Positions 39,939-45,160 of a stretch of 64,000 nucleotides of DNA are shown in pieces. This DNA is from Asanoa ishikariensis (lineage in GTDB: Bacteria > Actinomycetota > Actinomycetes > Mycobacteriales > Micromonosporaceae), in NCBI RefSeq assembly GCF_900107455.1, contig NZ_FNQB01000003.1:124001-188000 (forward strand). The letters run 5' to 3'. A program made the translations under genes and the position numbers. The notes beneath the pieces were generated by a model. It did no database searches. It was given only the letters and a program-made list of their open reading frames with translations, and was not told the origin of the DNA. Position 1 is the stretch's first letter, and every line of letters starts with the position of its first letter.

Positions 39939-40270
39939 CGGGCTCCCTCGGTCGGGTGGCGCTGGTGGTCGTTCCGGGTGAATCACCGTGTCGCGTGAGC
40001 TGAATTTGTAGGTTCATCCGCCGGCGGAGCGAATGTGAACCAACCAGGATCGCAGGTGGATAGGTGGTCGGTAAACCACGTCGTCCGATGTCCAGTATGG
40101 ATGATGACGAACGCAAGTCAATCGCACACGATGGGGTTGCGCCAATGGCAATTGTCATTGGCGCGACAGAAACTCCGGAGGCATTACTGGGGGTGGCCGC
40201 CGTGGCCCGACGGCGGCCACCGCGGCCGGGCACACGAGATCGCCGGTCGGGCGGTAACTTGGGCACCGCC
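39939..40270. promoter_or_regulatory. 332-base divergent control region between Crp-like and Hsp90 genes
   Basis: No gene was seen. A perfect 12-base palindrome TCCGCCGGCGGA (40017-40028) is bracketed by GGTTCA (40011-40016) and TGAACC (40035-40040). A larger inverted repeat has 9-base arms GCGCCAATG (40139-40147) and CATTGGCGC (40156-40164) around an 8-base AT-rich centre that itself contains CAATTG, so 24 of 26 positions are symmetric. Either could be an operator for the adjacent regulator. A CIRCE or HspR heat-shock element was not found. Confidence 0.6.
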
Positions 40271-42046
40271 ATGGACGCTCACCGCACTTTCCAGGTTGAC
40301 CTCGCCGGCCTGGTCGACCTGCTCAGCCACCATCTCTACGCCAGCCCGCGGGTCTACGTCCGCGAGCTGCTGCAGAACGCCGTCGACGCGATCACCGCGC
40401 GGCGCCTGCGGGAACCGGGCGCACCGGGAAGCGTCGAGCTGGACACCGCCGGCGACGGGCTGCGGGTCACCGACTCCGGCGTCGGGCTCACCGAAGCCCA
40501 GGTCCACGAGCTGCTGGCCACCATCGGTCGCAGCTCCAAACGCGACGACCTCGGCTTCGCCCGGCACGAGTTCCTCGGCCAGTTCGGCATCGGCCTGCTG
40601 TCGTGCTTCCTGGTCGCGCGGGAGATCGTCGTGCTCACCCGGGCCGCCGGCCACGCCGCCGTGCGCTGGACGGGCTACGACGACGGCCGCTACCTGGTCG
40701 AGAAGGTTGACGGCGAGCACCCCGTCGGCACCACCGTCACCCTGCTGCCCCGGCCCGGCGCCAAGATCTGGTTCGCCCCGGCGACCGTGCTGGAGCTGGC
40801 CCGGCTCTACGGCGACCAGCTTCCCGTCGAGGTGACCGTCGACGGCACACCGACCACCGGCCCGGTGGTGAGCGCGCCGTGGGAGGTGACCAGCACCCGC
40901 GCGTGGACCGCGTACGCCGAGCGCACCATGGGCCTGACCCCGTTCGACGTGATCCCGCTGTCGGTGCCCGAGGCGGGGCTGACCGGCGCGGCGTTCGTCA
41001 TGCCGCAGCCGCTGAACCCGGCCCAGCGCGGCGGCCACCGGGTCTACCTCAAGCACATGCTGCTCGCCGAGAGCGCCGAGGGCCTGCTGCCCGAGTGGGC
41101 CTTCTTCGCCCGCTGCGTCGTCGACACCAGCGAGCTGCGGCCGACCGCCAGCCGCGAGGCGCTCTACGAGGACGGCCTGCTCGACAGCACCCGCGAGGCG
41201 CTCGGCGACCAGCTCCGCGGCTGGCTGGTCCGGCTGGCCCGCACCGACCCGCGCCGGCTCGGCGAGTTCCTGCACGTGCACCACCTCGGCGTCAAAGCGC
41301 TGGCCCTGCACGACGACGTGATGCTCGACCTGGTCGCGTCCTGGTGGCCGATGGAGACCAACGTCGGCCGGATGACGCTGCGCGAGTTCCACGAACGGCA
41401 CGGCGTGATCCGCTACAGCGCCACCACCGACCAGTTCCGCCAACTCGCCGGCATCGCCGCCGCGCAGGACCTGGCGCTGGTCAACGCCGGCTACACCTAC
41501 GACGCCGAGATCATCGAGCGGTGGGCGCAGGTCGAGCGGGACGTGCGGATCGAGCGGCTCGACCCGACCGACCTGGCCACCCGGTTCGAGACCGTCGACC
41601 CGGCCACCGAGGTCGGCCTGCGCGGTTTCACCGTGGCCGCGCAGCGGGCCCTCGACCGGCTCGGCTGCGAGGTCGTGCTGCGTGCCTTCGACCCGTCCAC
41701 CGTGCCGGCCCTCTACCTCATCGACCGCGAGACCACGTTCCGCCAGGAGCTGCGCGCCACCCGTGAGAAGGCCGACCCGGTCTGGTCCGACGTGCTGGCC
41801 GCCCTCGACGACCGCCGCGCCGACACCCGGCCGCAGCTCGTGCTCAACCACCGCAACGCGCTGGTCCGCCGGATCACCGTGCTGCCCACCGCCGACCTGG
41901 TCGAGCTCGCCGTCGAGGCGCTCTACGGCCAGGCCCTGCTGCTCGGCTACCACCCCATCCGCCCGGCCGACGCCGCCCTGCTCAACCGATCGTTCCTGGG
42001 GCTGCTCGACCGCGCCGTGCCGACCGATCCGGAGGCCGGGCCGTGA
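40271..42046 (+). CDS. Hsp90-family protein (HtpG paralog)
   Basis: This 591-residue ATP-dependent chaperone homolog has the GHKL ATPase motifs: RELLQNAVDAITARR (catalytic E32, N36), RVTDSGVGLT (D68), and GQFGIGLLSCFLVA. The middle domain has the client/ATP-contact region RVYLKHMLLAESAEGLLPEW and VVDTSELRPTASREALYEDG, equivalent to the conserved NVSRE(x)LQ segment. The C-terminal region (about 500-591) is present but diverged, and the protein is somewhat shorter than standard HtpG (about 630). ATG at 40271; the frame is open farther up but without Hsp90 content. It overlaps the next gene, a large TPR protein, by four bases (GTGA). It is presumably not the organism's only Hsp90. Confidence 0.9.
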   Translation: MDAHRTFQVDLAGLVDLLSHHLYASPRVYVRELLQNAVDAITARRLREPGAPGSVELDTAGDGLRVTDSGVGLTEAQVHELLATIGRSSKRDDLGFARHEFLGQFGIGLLSCFLVAREIVVLTRAAGHAAVRWTGYDDGRYLVEKVDGEHPVGTTVTLLPRPGAKIWFAPATVLELARLYGDQLPVEVTVDGTPTTGPVVSAPWEVTSTRAWTAYAERTMGLTPFDVIPLSVPEAGLTGAAFVMPQPLNPAQRGGHRVYLKHMLLAESAEGLLPEWAFFARCVVDTSELRPTASREALYEDGLLDSTREALGDQLRGWLVRLARTDPRRLGEFLHVHHLGVKALALHDDVMLDLVASWWPMETNVGRMTLREFHERHGVIRYSATTDQFRQLAGIAAAQDLALVNAGYTYDAEIIERWAQVERDVRIERLDPTDLATRFETVDPATEVGLRGFTVAAQRALDRLGCEVVLRAFDPSTVPALYLIDRETTFRQELRATREKADPVWSDVLAALDDRRADTRPQLVLNHRNALVRRITVLPTADLVELAVEALYGQALLLGYHPIRPADAALLNRSFLGLLDRAVPTDPEAGP

Positions 42047-44808
42047 ACGTCACCGAGATGCTCGACCGGGCACGCGAGCTGCCCTACGGCGCCGCCCAGA
42101 TCGCCCTGCTGGAGCAGGCGATCGCGCACGCCGACGCGCAACGGCTCGTCGACGAGGCGTTCGAGGCGCGGGTGCTGGCCACCACCGGCTACGTCTACGG
42201 CGGCGAGCCGGCGCGCTCGTTCGTCACGTTCAGTTGGTGCCTGTCCGAGTTCGATCAGGACCCGGTGCGCCATGGCCGGTGGACGCACAACCTGCTGTGG
42301 TCGTTCAAGGCGATGGTCAACGCGATGACCAAGTTCCCGGAGATCCCGCTGGGCCGCACCACCGACGTGCTCGACGACATGGAGCGCCGCTGGCGCGCCG
42401 GCGGCCACAGCCTCCACGCCGTCTACGCGCACCGGCACATGCTGGCCCGCCACGTGGGCGACCTCGACGCCGCCGAGCAGTGGTTCGACCGCTGGAACAC
42501 CGCGCCGCGCGACGACCTGTCCGACTGTGTCGGCTGCGACCCGACCAGCAAGGCGCACTGGCTGGCCGCCAGCGGGCGCGACGAGGAGGCGGTCGCCCTC
42601 GCCGAACCCGTGCTCGCGGGCCGGCTGACCTGCACCGAGCAGCCGCAGTCGATCTACACCACGCTGCTGCTGCCTTACCTGCGCACCGGGCGCGCCGACG
42701 CGGCCCGCGACGCGCACCGGCGGGCGTACCGGCTGCACCGCACCCACCTGGCCGACCTGGCCGACATCGCGCAGCACGTCACGTTCTGCGGTCTGACCGG
42801 CAACGAGGTCCTCGGCCTGGAGATCGTCGAACGGCACCTCGGCTGGCTGGAGCGCTCGCCGACCCCGTACGCGACGATGACCTTCGCCGCGGCCGCGGCG
42901 CTCGTGCTGGGCCGCCTCGACACGTCCGGCCACGGCGGCCTGACCGTCGCCGGCCGGCCCGTGGGCGCGGTCGCCGAGGAGCTGTCCGCGCGGGCTCTGG
43001 ACCTCGCGGCCCGGTTCGACGCCCGCAACGGCACCGACCACCAGTCGGAGCGCATCCGGGAGACGCTGGCCGCCGCGCCGATCGATGCCGGCTTCCGGTT
43101 GGCCGCGCCGGGTTCCCGGCGGGCGCGACCGATGCCGGCCCCCGCTTCACGGGTGCCCGAGCGTCCGGTGTGGACCGATCCGGTGCCCGCCACCGACGGC
43201 CCGGACGAGCTGCTCGACGCGGCTGAGGCCCATTTCCGCACTCGCCGCGAGGGAGCCGCGTTCGCCGCCTGGGCGGCCTTCGACGAGCGTTACGGCGCCG
43301 ACCCGCTGACCGACCTGCAACGCGCCCGGCGCGCCGACGGTGCCGGCAGCCGGGCGGCGTCCGACGATGACGACGCCGGAGCCGAGGCGGCCTGGCGGGA
43401 GGCGGACGCGCTCTTCGCGGCGGCCGGTGACGAGGTGCGCCGCCAGGTGGTACGCGGCCGGCTCGGGATGGGGCTGCTCCGCTCCGGCCGGGCCGACGAG
43501 GGCCGGGACCTGATCGAGGAGTCCACCGCCTACCTGGTCGCGGACGGCGCGCCCGAGCGGCTGGCCCGGGCCTACCTGCGGCTGGCATACGCGCAGGCGG
43601 CCACCGGCCGGATCCCGGAGTCGGTGGCCACCGGCCGGGTGGCGCAGCAGCACGCCGGCGCGGCCGACGACCCCTCCGTGCTGGGCCAGATCCTCGCGCT
43701 GCGCGCCCAGGTGCTCAGCCGGCTCGGCGAGAGCGAAGAGGCCGAGTCAGCGGCCGCCGAGAGCCGTGCCCGGTTCCGGGCGGTCGGCCTGCCCGACGAG
43801 CTCGCGCACGCCTGCTTCCTGCACGGCGTCACACTGCGCCAACTCGACCGGGGCGAGGAGGCACTGGCCGCGTTCGACGAGGGGCTCGCGGCGCCGTGCG
43901 GCCCGGCCCTGCGCCGGCTGGTCACGCGCCAACGGGCGGGCCTGCTCGCCAACTCGGCCCGCGCCGCCGAGGCGATCGCCCCGCTGGCCGAGGAGATCGC
44001 CGCGCTGACCGCCGCCGGCGACCGGGAGACCGTCCCGCACACCCAGTACGAGCTCGCGATCGCCTACCTCAACGCCGGCCGGCCGCTGGACGCGGCGGAG
44101 GTCGGCGAGGAGGCGCTCGCCGCGTTCGACGCCGCCGCCGAGCCGCAGGCGCTGGCCGTGCGCGACCTGCTGGTCGCCGTCTACCACGAACTGTCCGAGC
44201 ATGATTCGGTGCTGGCCCAGTTGACGGCGATGGCCGAGACGATCGCGGCGGGCGGCGACCCCGAGGCACTGGCCCAGGTCACGGAGCGGCTGGCGGAGGC
44301 GCTCGACCGGCTGGACCGCGACGCCACCGCGGCGGCTCGGTTCGCCGACGCGGCCGCCGCCTGGTCCACCGCCGGACGGGCGGTCGACGCGCTGCGCGCC
44401 CGCCGCCGGCACGCCACCTCGCTGCTGTGGGCGGGGCAGCCGGAGGCGGCGCTGGCGGCGCTGGCCGAGGCCGACGCCGCCGCGGCGCCGTTGCCCGACG
44501 AACCGCACGCGGTGTGGGAGCGGGCGATGCTCGACTACGACGGCGCCCGGCTGTTGGACCGCCTCGACCGCTCGGCCGAGGCGATACCGCGGGCCGCCCG
44601 GGCGGGCGAGGGCTTCCGCGCGCTGGGCGCCGGCACCCAGGCCGGCTTCGCGGGCCTGCTGCACGGCGAGCTGTTGCGCTCGGCGGGCCGACCCGACGAG
44701 GCCGGGCCGGTGCTGTCCGCCGCGCTGGCCCAGGTGCCCGACGACGAGCCGGCGCTCCGGGGCCAACTCGAGCGTGCGCTGTCGGGCCTAGCAGAAGACC
44801 GGTTTTGA
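42043..44808 (+). CDS. 921-residue tetratricopeptide-repeat protein coupled to Hsp90
   Basis: This large soluble protein is made of helical TPR-like repeats in two blocks, about residues 1-330 and 385-915, joined by a proline-rich linker (RRARPMPAPASRVPERPVWT). Repeat units include ARVLATTGYVYGGEPARSFV, HRHMLARHVGDLDAAEQWFD, ARAYLRLAYAQAATGRIPES, and YELAIAYLNAGRPLDAAEVG. No enzymatic domain or membrane segment is visible. The GTG start overlaps the Hsp90 stop, so the two products are made together. In eukaryotes TPR proteins are Hsp90 cochaperones; here the C-terminal EEVD tail that recruits them is absent, so contact, if any, must be different. Its role as a partner is inferred from coupling. 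Confidence 0.85.
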   Translation: MNVTEMLDRARELPYGAAQIALLEQAIAHADAQRLVDEAFEARVLATTGYVYGGEPARSFVTFSWCLSEFDQDPVRHGRWTHNLLWSFKAMVNAMTKFPEIPLGRTTDVLDDMERRWRAGGHSLHAVYAHRHMLARHVGDLDAAEQWFDRWNTAPRDDLSDCVGCDPTSKAHWLAASGRDEEAVALAEPVLAGRLTCTEQPQSIYTTLLLPYLRTGRADAARDAHRRAYRLHRTHLADLADIAQHVTFCGLTGNEVLGLEIVERHLGWLERSPTPYATMTFAAAAALVLGRLDTSGHGGLTVAGRPVGAVAEELSARALDLAARFDARNGTDHQSERIRETLAAAPIDAGFRLAAPGSRRARPMPAPASRVPERPVWTDPVPATDGPDELLDAAEAHFRTRREGAAFAAWAAFDERYGADPLTDLQRARRADGAGSRAASDDDDAGAEAAWREADALFAAAGDEVRRQVVRGRLGMGLLRSGRADEGRDLIEESTAYLVADGAPERLARAYLRLAYAQAATGRIPESVATGRVAQQHAGAADDPSVLGQILALRAQVLSRLGESEEAESAAAESRARFRAVGLPDELAHACFLHGVTLRQLDRGEEALAAFDEGLAAPCGPALRRLVTRQRAGLLANSARAAEAIAPLAEEIAALTAAGDRETVPHTQYELAIAYLNAGRPLDAAEVGEEALAAFDAAAEPQALAVRDLLVAVYHELSEHDSVLAQLTAMAETIAAGGDPEALAQVTERLAEALDRLDRDATAAARFADAAAAWSTAGRAVDALRARRRHATSLLWAGQPEAALAALAEADAAAAPLPDEPHAVWERAMLDYDGARLLDRLDRSAEAIPRAARAGEGFRALGAGTQAGFAGLLHGELLRSAGRPDEAGPVLSAALAQVPDDEPALRGQLERALSGLAEDRF

Positions 44809-44836: not shown

Positions 44837-45160
44837 ATGTCGACCATCGAAGCGACCGACGAAGAGCCGCCCGCCATCGCCCAGGTCTCCCCGGGCATGG
44901 AGGTCCACGACGCGGGCGGGGTGCCGGTCGGCATGGTCGACGCGGTGCAGCAGCCCGACACCGACATCCGGCCGCAGTTGCCGGCCGGCCCGGCCGAGCT
45001 CTACATGGCCACCGGCTACCTGCTGGTCGACCGGGGCGAGCAGTTCGAGAACGACGTGTACGTCAGCGGCGCGCAGGTCGACCACGTCAGCGGCACGGGA
45101 GACGGCGCCCTCGTCACCCTGAACGTGAGTTGGGCCGAGCTGGACCGCGCCGTCGATTGA
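44837..45160 (+). CDS. Small PRC-barrel-like protein (DUF2171-like)
   Basis: This 107-residue protein has the pattern VSPGMEVHDAGGVPVGMVDA followed by a polar loop and LLVDRGEQFENDVYVSGAQV, which resembles the DUF2171/PRC-barrel proteins that mark stress or photosynthesis-related small proteins in many bacteria. The function is unknown. It starts 28 bases after the TPR gene. A small GGGG-CATT-CCCC hairpin followed by TTTT lies directly before the ATG (44820-44835) and may reduce read-through from the Hsp90-TPR operon. Confidence 0.72.
   Translation: MSTIEATDEEPPAIAQVSPGMEVHDAGGVPVGMVDAVQQPDTDIRPQLPAGPAELYMATGYLLVDRGEQFENDVYVSGAQVDHVSGTGDGALVTLNVSWAELDRAVD

Follow-up and report, generated by a model that had tools for sequence, protein, structure and literature searches.

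The window analysed here, a stretch of 64,000 nucleotides from Asanoa ishikariensis (NCBI RefSeq assembly GCF_900107455.1, contig NZ_FNQB01000003.1, positions 124,001 to 188,000), contains two overlapping forward-strand genes that had been singled out in an original prediction made from the sequence alone: an Hsp90-family gene and, directly downstream, a gene for a 921-aa protein. Both open reading frames are present where they were placed, with a correction to the first. The mechanical Hsp90 ORF begins at a GTG at position 40064 and encodes 660 aa, but the profile of its NCBIfam family, NF010683 (PRK14083), starts only at residue 72; this start is therefore too early, and the likely one is the ATG at 40271, which gives a protein of 591 aa (40271..42046, + strand). 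The protein scores 783.5 bits against NF010683 (cut-off 455) and 144 bits against the canonical HtpG model NF003555 (cut-off 371), and is thus a member of the former, a family named "HSP90 family protein" whose model covers the Hsp90 alone. Numbered from the ATG at 40271, the catalytic-site residues are E32, N36, D68, G72, GQFGIG at 103-108, and R295, comprising all of the GHKL ATP-site residues (E, N, DxGxG, and GxxG) and the middle-domain catalytic arginine; E32, N36, D68, and GQFGIG had been named beforehand and fall into place with this numbering. Seven checked positions are identical across 61 aligned Hsp90s, including 24 canonical HtpGs. Judged by its catalytic residues, this non-canonical Hsp90 is ATPase-competent. 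Its predicted model (pLDDT 75.6, pTM 0.51) has the full-length N-M-C architecture of the family, with full-length Foldseek matches to TRAP1/HtpG structures (best E 1.7e-27) for which the whole-chain fit is only TM 0.46, at an rmsd of 11 Å. The nearest named relative found, from Asanoa hainanensis (locus L003), has an Hsp90 that is 97% identical, and comparison with this locus gives a dN/dS of 0.14 for the Hsp90 and 0.27 for the partner, values that point clearly to purifying selection on both.

The stop codon of the Hsp90 gene and the start codon of the partner gene share a GTGA at 42043..42046 (+), as originally read, and a Shine-Dalgarno-like GGAGG lies inside the Hsp90 gene at 42031..42035 (+), 7 nt before the partner GTG. 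We infer that the two genes are translationally coupled. A scan for sigma-70 promoters and terminators returned one match, on the other strand, in DNA that is too GC-rich for such a scan to be informative. The Hsp90 ends in PTDPEAGP, without an EEVD tail, and this feature of the original prediction holds well beyond the window: EEVD is found in the last 30 residues of none (0/99) of the distinct Hsp90s in the extracted pairs described below. A small ORF with a sub-threshold DUF2171 match follows the partner gene (window positions 44837-45160).

The partner gene (42043..44808, +) encodes 921 aa that form two predicted helical solenoids in an AlphaFold2 model of mean pLDDT 89 (helices 3-342 and 387-918). 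The first is a constant N-terminal helical domain, hereafter the N-domain (residues 1-345, ~340 aa; 42043..43077, +), which is helical in the model and is hardly covered by the rows of our structure comparison. A linker of mostly low confidence (residues 350-386; 43090..43200, +; pLDDT <50 at 355-378) leads into a C-terminal TPR solenoid (residues 387-918; 43201..44796, +), assigned from the AlphaFold2 model and from structure comparison. In the predicted model, helical hairpins repeat as a solenoid across residues 383-921, and within residues 383-699 the alignment with the TPR domain of LGN (4wnd_A) extends over 314 residues (VIA-align Z 23.7, rmsd 4.5). The earlier description of the protein as almost wholly TPR-like is a fair one, in that the model is helical except near residues 355-378, with the qualification that residues 1-345 make up a domain separate from the TPR solenoid.

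TPR models are the sole Pfam matches of the window partner, and none reaches its cut-off, the best lying just under the gathering scores (TPR_8 23.0 of 25.7; TPR_12 22.8 of 30.1); relatives lie above them (L109, TPR_12 42.1 of 30.1; a Listeria partner, TPR_8 26.1 of 25.7). For the N-domain we found no Pfam family of its own, just single TPR motifs in some homologues (the same TPR_8 match in Listeria and a weak TPR_2 match in L134), so that this domain, too, is probably a TPR-like solenoid that has diverged. This N-terminal part of the partner is better conserved than the C-terminal part and carries three conserved cysteines, namely C162-x2-C165 (42526..42537, +) and C197 (42631..42633, +), each of which is found in 96 of the 97 distinct partners in the alignment; the only row to lack them is the partner of L089, which is of a YbjN type and in reversed gene order (see below). 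A C3H zinc site completed by H225 was considered and rejected, since H225 is absent in Listeria, Paenibacillus, and one other row that keep the three cysteines. We also rejected a generic TPR regulator of the AfsR type, for which the match to the AfsR PDB sequence is limited to TPR positions 494-752 of the profile. A viral structure library returned distant repeat proteins only.

The original prediction labelled the Hsp90 a paralog and proposed to look for a coexisting housekeeping htpG. In profile searches of the 9.09-Mb genome, the window protein is the sole match to either NF010683 or NF003555; the label is wrong for this genome, and an extra copy beside a housekeeping htpG is ruled out here, as no other Hsp90 was detected. 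Among the 36 genomes with the NF010683 family in the class sample described below, at least 10 have a further Hsp90-type match of at least 130 bits (with up to four candidates scored per genome), one of them, in genome G660, being odd. Canonical HtpG (NF003555) shares the fold and ATPase residues of the window protein, but differs from it in branch and in neighbourhood. In a tree of 61 Hsp90s (without the divergent loci L181-L185 introduced below), the 24 canonical HtpGs split from the other 37 with support 1.0. As a control we used 15 canonical HtpG loci of the phylum, each with ~4 kb downstream: in 14 of the 15, the first two downstream-side neighbours had no partner-model match at E 0.01, and at the control locus L202 no gene was called. 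Ten such neighbours compared with Pfam contained no TPR, eight matching other families and two none; the families seen include helicase, antiporter, methyltransferase, nitroreductase, GntR, and others. Six annotated plasmid htpG loci similarly have no TPR-annotated gene, some of their neighbours being unscanned hypotheticals.

A search of actinobacterial genomes for the pair, which the original prediction had put forward as a check, found it conserved and not confined to the genome of the window. A pattern-based scan yielded 21 Hsp90 loci, with a partner homologue directly downstream in 20 (the 21st, L020, ends inside the Hsp90); because of this recurrence and its dN/dS, we take the 921-aa ORF to be a real coding sequence. 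Three sampled surveys, which share some genomes, were then made with the Hsp90 family and the partner N-domain (alignment A3) at the level of phylum, class, and family. The phylum sample has 14 over-cut-off Hsp90s in 12 of 396 genomes, with the N-domain directly downstream of 13 (judged by eye); the exception, G325, which belongs to the same order, encodes a different TPR protein, of 297 aa, whose gene overlaps that of the Hsp90 by ATGA. The class sample has 41 Hsp90s in 36 of 296 genomes; 40 of them are followed by the N-domain on the same strand at a distance of no more than 500 bp, G325 again being the exception. In the family sample, 110 Hsp90s are spread over 94 of 121 genomes, and by the same limits of strand and distance at least 104 are followed by the N-domain. 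The remaining six are two Hsp90s at or near contig ends (G399, G483), one with the partner directly upstream and a 4-nt overlap retained (G417, locus L089), one with a divergent downstream relative (G460; 362 aa, scoring 19 bits against the N-domain model), one with an apparent partner remnant, judged by eye from antisense ORFs (G398), and one with no partner beside its Hsp90 and an N-domain gene on another contig (G427).

Counted by genome, the class sample contains 35 with both genes, 1 with the Hsp90 only, 3 with the N-domain only, and 257 with neither (Fisher p 8e-41, with kinship ignored). Among the 150 N-domain matches listed for the family sample, 46 were not assigned as a downstream partner; these include contig-split ends, tandem second copies, fusions with YbjN (some near FtsK), and TPR forms in G437 and G457, the latter genome being 77% complete. 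Gene content in these assemblies shows that the N-domain can exist without a nearby Hsp90 of the NF010683 family. TPR-type partner genes without an adjacent Hsp90 are seen at L090-L093, two of which come from G437 and G457, genomes without an over-cut-off Hsp90 of that family.

For the anatomy of the pair we examined 108 loci, leaving out L020, the orphans L069-L071, and L072 and L086, whose partners are divergent. The resulting 102 pairs correspond to 99 distinct ones after merging L130 with L017, L139 with L103, and L140 with L015; most were picked as already paired, so that the set gives anatomy and not frequency. The two genes overlap by exactly 4 nt in 44 of the 99, by 1 nt in 5, and by other lengths in 8; gaps measure 0-20 nt in 32, 21-60 in 4, and >60 in 5, and one pair is reversed. 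Tree distances of the Hsp90s and of the N-domains are correlated at 0.90 over 97 distinct pairs (the 99 minus two truncated), compared with a maximum of 0.22 in 1000 label shuffles, a correlation that by itself is no proof of contact, since the common ancestry of an operon survives the shuffling. The duplication of both genes together carries more weight. Among 21 double-operon genomes seen, cognate pairing fits better than swapped pairing in all 16 tested (run on a 100-row set with three repeated pairs included).

Complete partners range from 324 to 1055 aa, with 71 of 95 longer than 750 aa, 10 of 571-750, 12 of 480-570, and 2 of 300-400; the short partners L011, L077, and L143 look frameshifted. 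A group of ~520 aa carries a YbjN domain (Pfam matches in L089, L125, L134, L166, and L167), so that the C-terminal module is exchanged between TPR and YbjN. Across the aligned homologues the N-domain is the constant element, and what follows it varies: TPR solenoid, YbjN, short, or absent. The original prediction described a giant TPR protein; what stays constant is the N-terminal ~340-aa domain, the TPR array being one of several interchangeable C-terminal modules. Fusions of the N-domain with YbjN also occur away from Hsp90, at L069 (8087-9643, -), which lies in the window's own genome (G000:C4), at L070 (8005-9609, +), and at L094-L097, with the Pfam YbjN match shown for L069 and L070. The neighbour of L069 and of L070 is a gene for an FtsK-type translocase; at L094-L097 an ORF of 755-1267 aa occupies a similar position. 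At L102, L103, L104, and L106 (three actinobacterial loci and Listeria), a single Hsp90 gene is followed by a tandem duplication of the partner gene.

We consider it reasonably probable that the two genes form an operon of an ATPase-competent, non-canonical Hsp90 and a dedicated adaptor, that is, a cochaperone. From the anatomy, with one constant and one variable part, the ~340-aa helical N-domain would face the Hsp90, with C162, C165, and C197 perhaps serving this contact as a metal site or a redox switch, and the changing tail would face the client or target; the variable module (in the window protein, the TPR solenoid) would gather a client or client class, and the ATP cycle of the Hsp90 would act on the cargo so brought. 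Binding, orientation, client delivery, and the metal or redox role are all what we infer for the pair. The same anatomy could be read the other way round, with the partner as the dedicated client of the Hsp90, an extended solenoid whose folding or change of state would depend on this Hsp90 and whose own function would lie elsewhere. The Hsp90 comes first in nearly every operon (at least 104 of 110), and the majority of partners are long, modular proteins (>750 aa in 71 of 95 complete ones), as a client would have it, but N-domain proteins exist without a nearby Hsp90, gene order is reversed in G417, and standalone partners in Bacillota (below) are small, at 320-353 aa. We regard the client reading as unlikely.

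In a plasmid collection, 10 records cover at least 80% of the Hsp90. In three Streptomyces plasmid records the downstream genes match the N-domain. The Paenibacillus partner, of 353 aa and with a 4-nt overlap, consists of the N-domain alone (173 bits, E 5e-54 in a 13-sequence search), as do two tandem partner genes in Listeria (324 and 320 aa; 151 and 154 bits, E 3e-47 and 4e-48 in the same search); a second Listeria record has an ORF of similar size 11 bp downstream of the Hsp90. As far as homology of the encoded proteins goes, the pair is conserved in two phyla, Actinomycetota and Bacillota. Downstream proteins of 774 aa in Xanthomonas and 764 aa in Pseudomonas aeruginosa have weak TPR hits and are 62% identical to each other, with no significant similarity to the window N-domain (one further Xanthomonas record is truncated at its end), and in Pseudanabaena a TPR gene is the second gene downstream of the Hsp90. 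The TPR genes that follow such divergent Hsp90s are either unrelated to the window partner or far diverged from it.

Within the family sample, six Hsp90 matches score below the NF010683 cut-off, at ~248-354 bits; we fetched five (L181-L185), the sixth (G453) being partial and near a contig start. The odd 177-bit match of G660 (L187), where no Hsp90 gene is called, was excluded from the count. A long ORF lies directly downstream in all five. Pfam identifies the products of four as TPR proteins (E<0.01), and the remaining one shares 63% identity with one of the four. This pattern bears on the idea of mere adjacency, in which an ancient operon would have persisted by chance or through co-regulation without a common function. 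Related genomes do keep gene order elsewhere too, and some Micromonospora loci have further downstream genes in common, but the pair is also kept in paired duplicates, after the order reversal in G417, and, by sequence homology, in both Actinomycetota and Bacillota, and the five divergent Hsp90s likewise have their long downstream ORF; mere adjacency strikes us as very improbable. Two of the divergent Hsp90s, L182 (4555-6111, +) and L185 (4629-6116, -), are degenerate: in the alignment N36, the TASRE loop, and the stretch GQFGIG are missing from both, although L182 still seems to keep the Glu and Asp. Each is still followed by a TPR gene that overlaps it, and an over-cut-off pair is present as well in each of the two genomes.

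Partners of the Xanthomonas/Pseudomonas type recur at L183 and L184 (32-34% identity over ~784 aa). We note this second partner family, of ~764-784 aa and common to Micromonosporaceae and gammaproteobacteria, beside divergent Hsp90s at L183 (6776-9130), L184 (2308-4659), L108 (6846-9170), and L110 (6828-9122). From gene order we take L110 to be PA1068/PA1069 of P. aeruginosa. Its layout, an Hsp90-like gene followed by one for a 764-aa protein with weak TPR hits, is that of the window, but the partner belongs to the second family. One study notes that PA1069 seems to share an operon with an Hsp90 gene (PMC4053335), and another reports it down about fourfold at elevated temperature (PMC4957987).

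The Hsp90s of L107 (4932-7565, +) and L181 (3987-6596, -), of 877 and 869 aa, have a TPR gene downstream and are extended at the C-terminus by stretches whose weak hits are TIR-like or deoxyribosyltransferase-like; they are possibly defence-type relatives. Such extensions, and the resemblance of the TPR part to Rap, NprR, PlcR, and LGN structures (and to AfsR by sequence), would suit a signalling or defence switch in which an Hsp90-like ATPase clamp reads out a TPR sensor and is no general chaperone. However, TPR fold similarity is generic, the 591-aa window Hsp90 has no such extension, and PADLOC returned no hit for the partner and, for the Hsp90, weak TmtA/REase hits confined to the ATPase region, so that its models lend no support to a known defence system. 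We think a switch quite unlikely.

The adaptor reading invites comparison with eukaryotes, where TPR cochaperones of Hsp90 such as Hop/Sti1, FKBP51/52, Cpr6, and PP5 are likewise TPR proteins paired with an Hsp90. Cytosolic eukaryotic Hsp90 presents a C-terminal MEEVD, according to a review (PMC11687934). The window-type Hsp90s differ in lacking EEVD, and in their partners the constant domain, for which we found no dedicated Pfam family, bears a CxxC...C triplet. In the open-licence PMC literature we found no prior description of the pair as a cochaperone system, and a 2021 paper states that in remodelling bacterial Hsp90 works without identified cochaperones. In Leptospira biflexa, htpG directly follows bat genes, and one of these, batB, includes a TPR domain (PMC3557215). 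The classification of Chen et al. 2006 (PMC1525184) assigns Actinobacteria and Firmicutes sequences to HTPG Groups A and C and the two HTPG copies of S. coelicolor to different groups; NF010683 probably overlaps Group C.

Three observations count against the adaptor reading: the adjacent pair is broken in G427, N-domains occur away from this Hsp90 (46 of the 150 listed), and PA1069, taken as an analogous partner, goes down and not up at elevated temperature. What stands of the original proposal is that a TPR-type partner goes with an Hsp90 that lacks EEVD; adjacency in a single genome, which the proposal had named as refuting it, is not what we see, since the pair recurs across genomes and in Bacillota. 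Its description of the Hsp90 as a paralog does not stand, and the constant element is the N-domain and not the giant TPR array. Such recurrence, in many related bacteria and in another phylum, points to a dedicated partner protein for some bacterial Hsp90s. In its broadest form, to which we give chances slightly above even, the adaptor reading extends to a whole branch of non-canonical bacterial Hsp90s, each working with a helical-repeat adaptor dedicated to it. These adaptors would be the first bacterial Hsp90 cochaperone family, independent of EEVD and present by homology in at least Actinomycetota and Bacillota, while the analogous TPR partners of Pseudomonadota and Cyanobacteriota would either have replaced the adaptor or arrived separately. 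If so, the partnership of Hsp90 with TPR proteins would be no eukaryotic speciality bound to EEVD. The conserved operon partner is a directly testable candidate cochaperone in ordinary actinomycetes, and its constant domain with a swappable tail may provide a natural series for finding clients.
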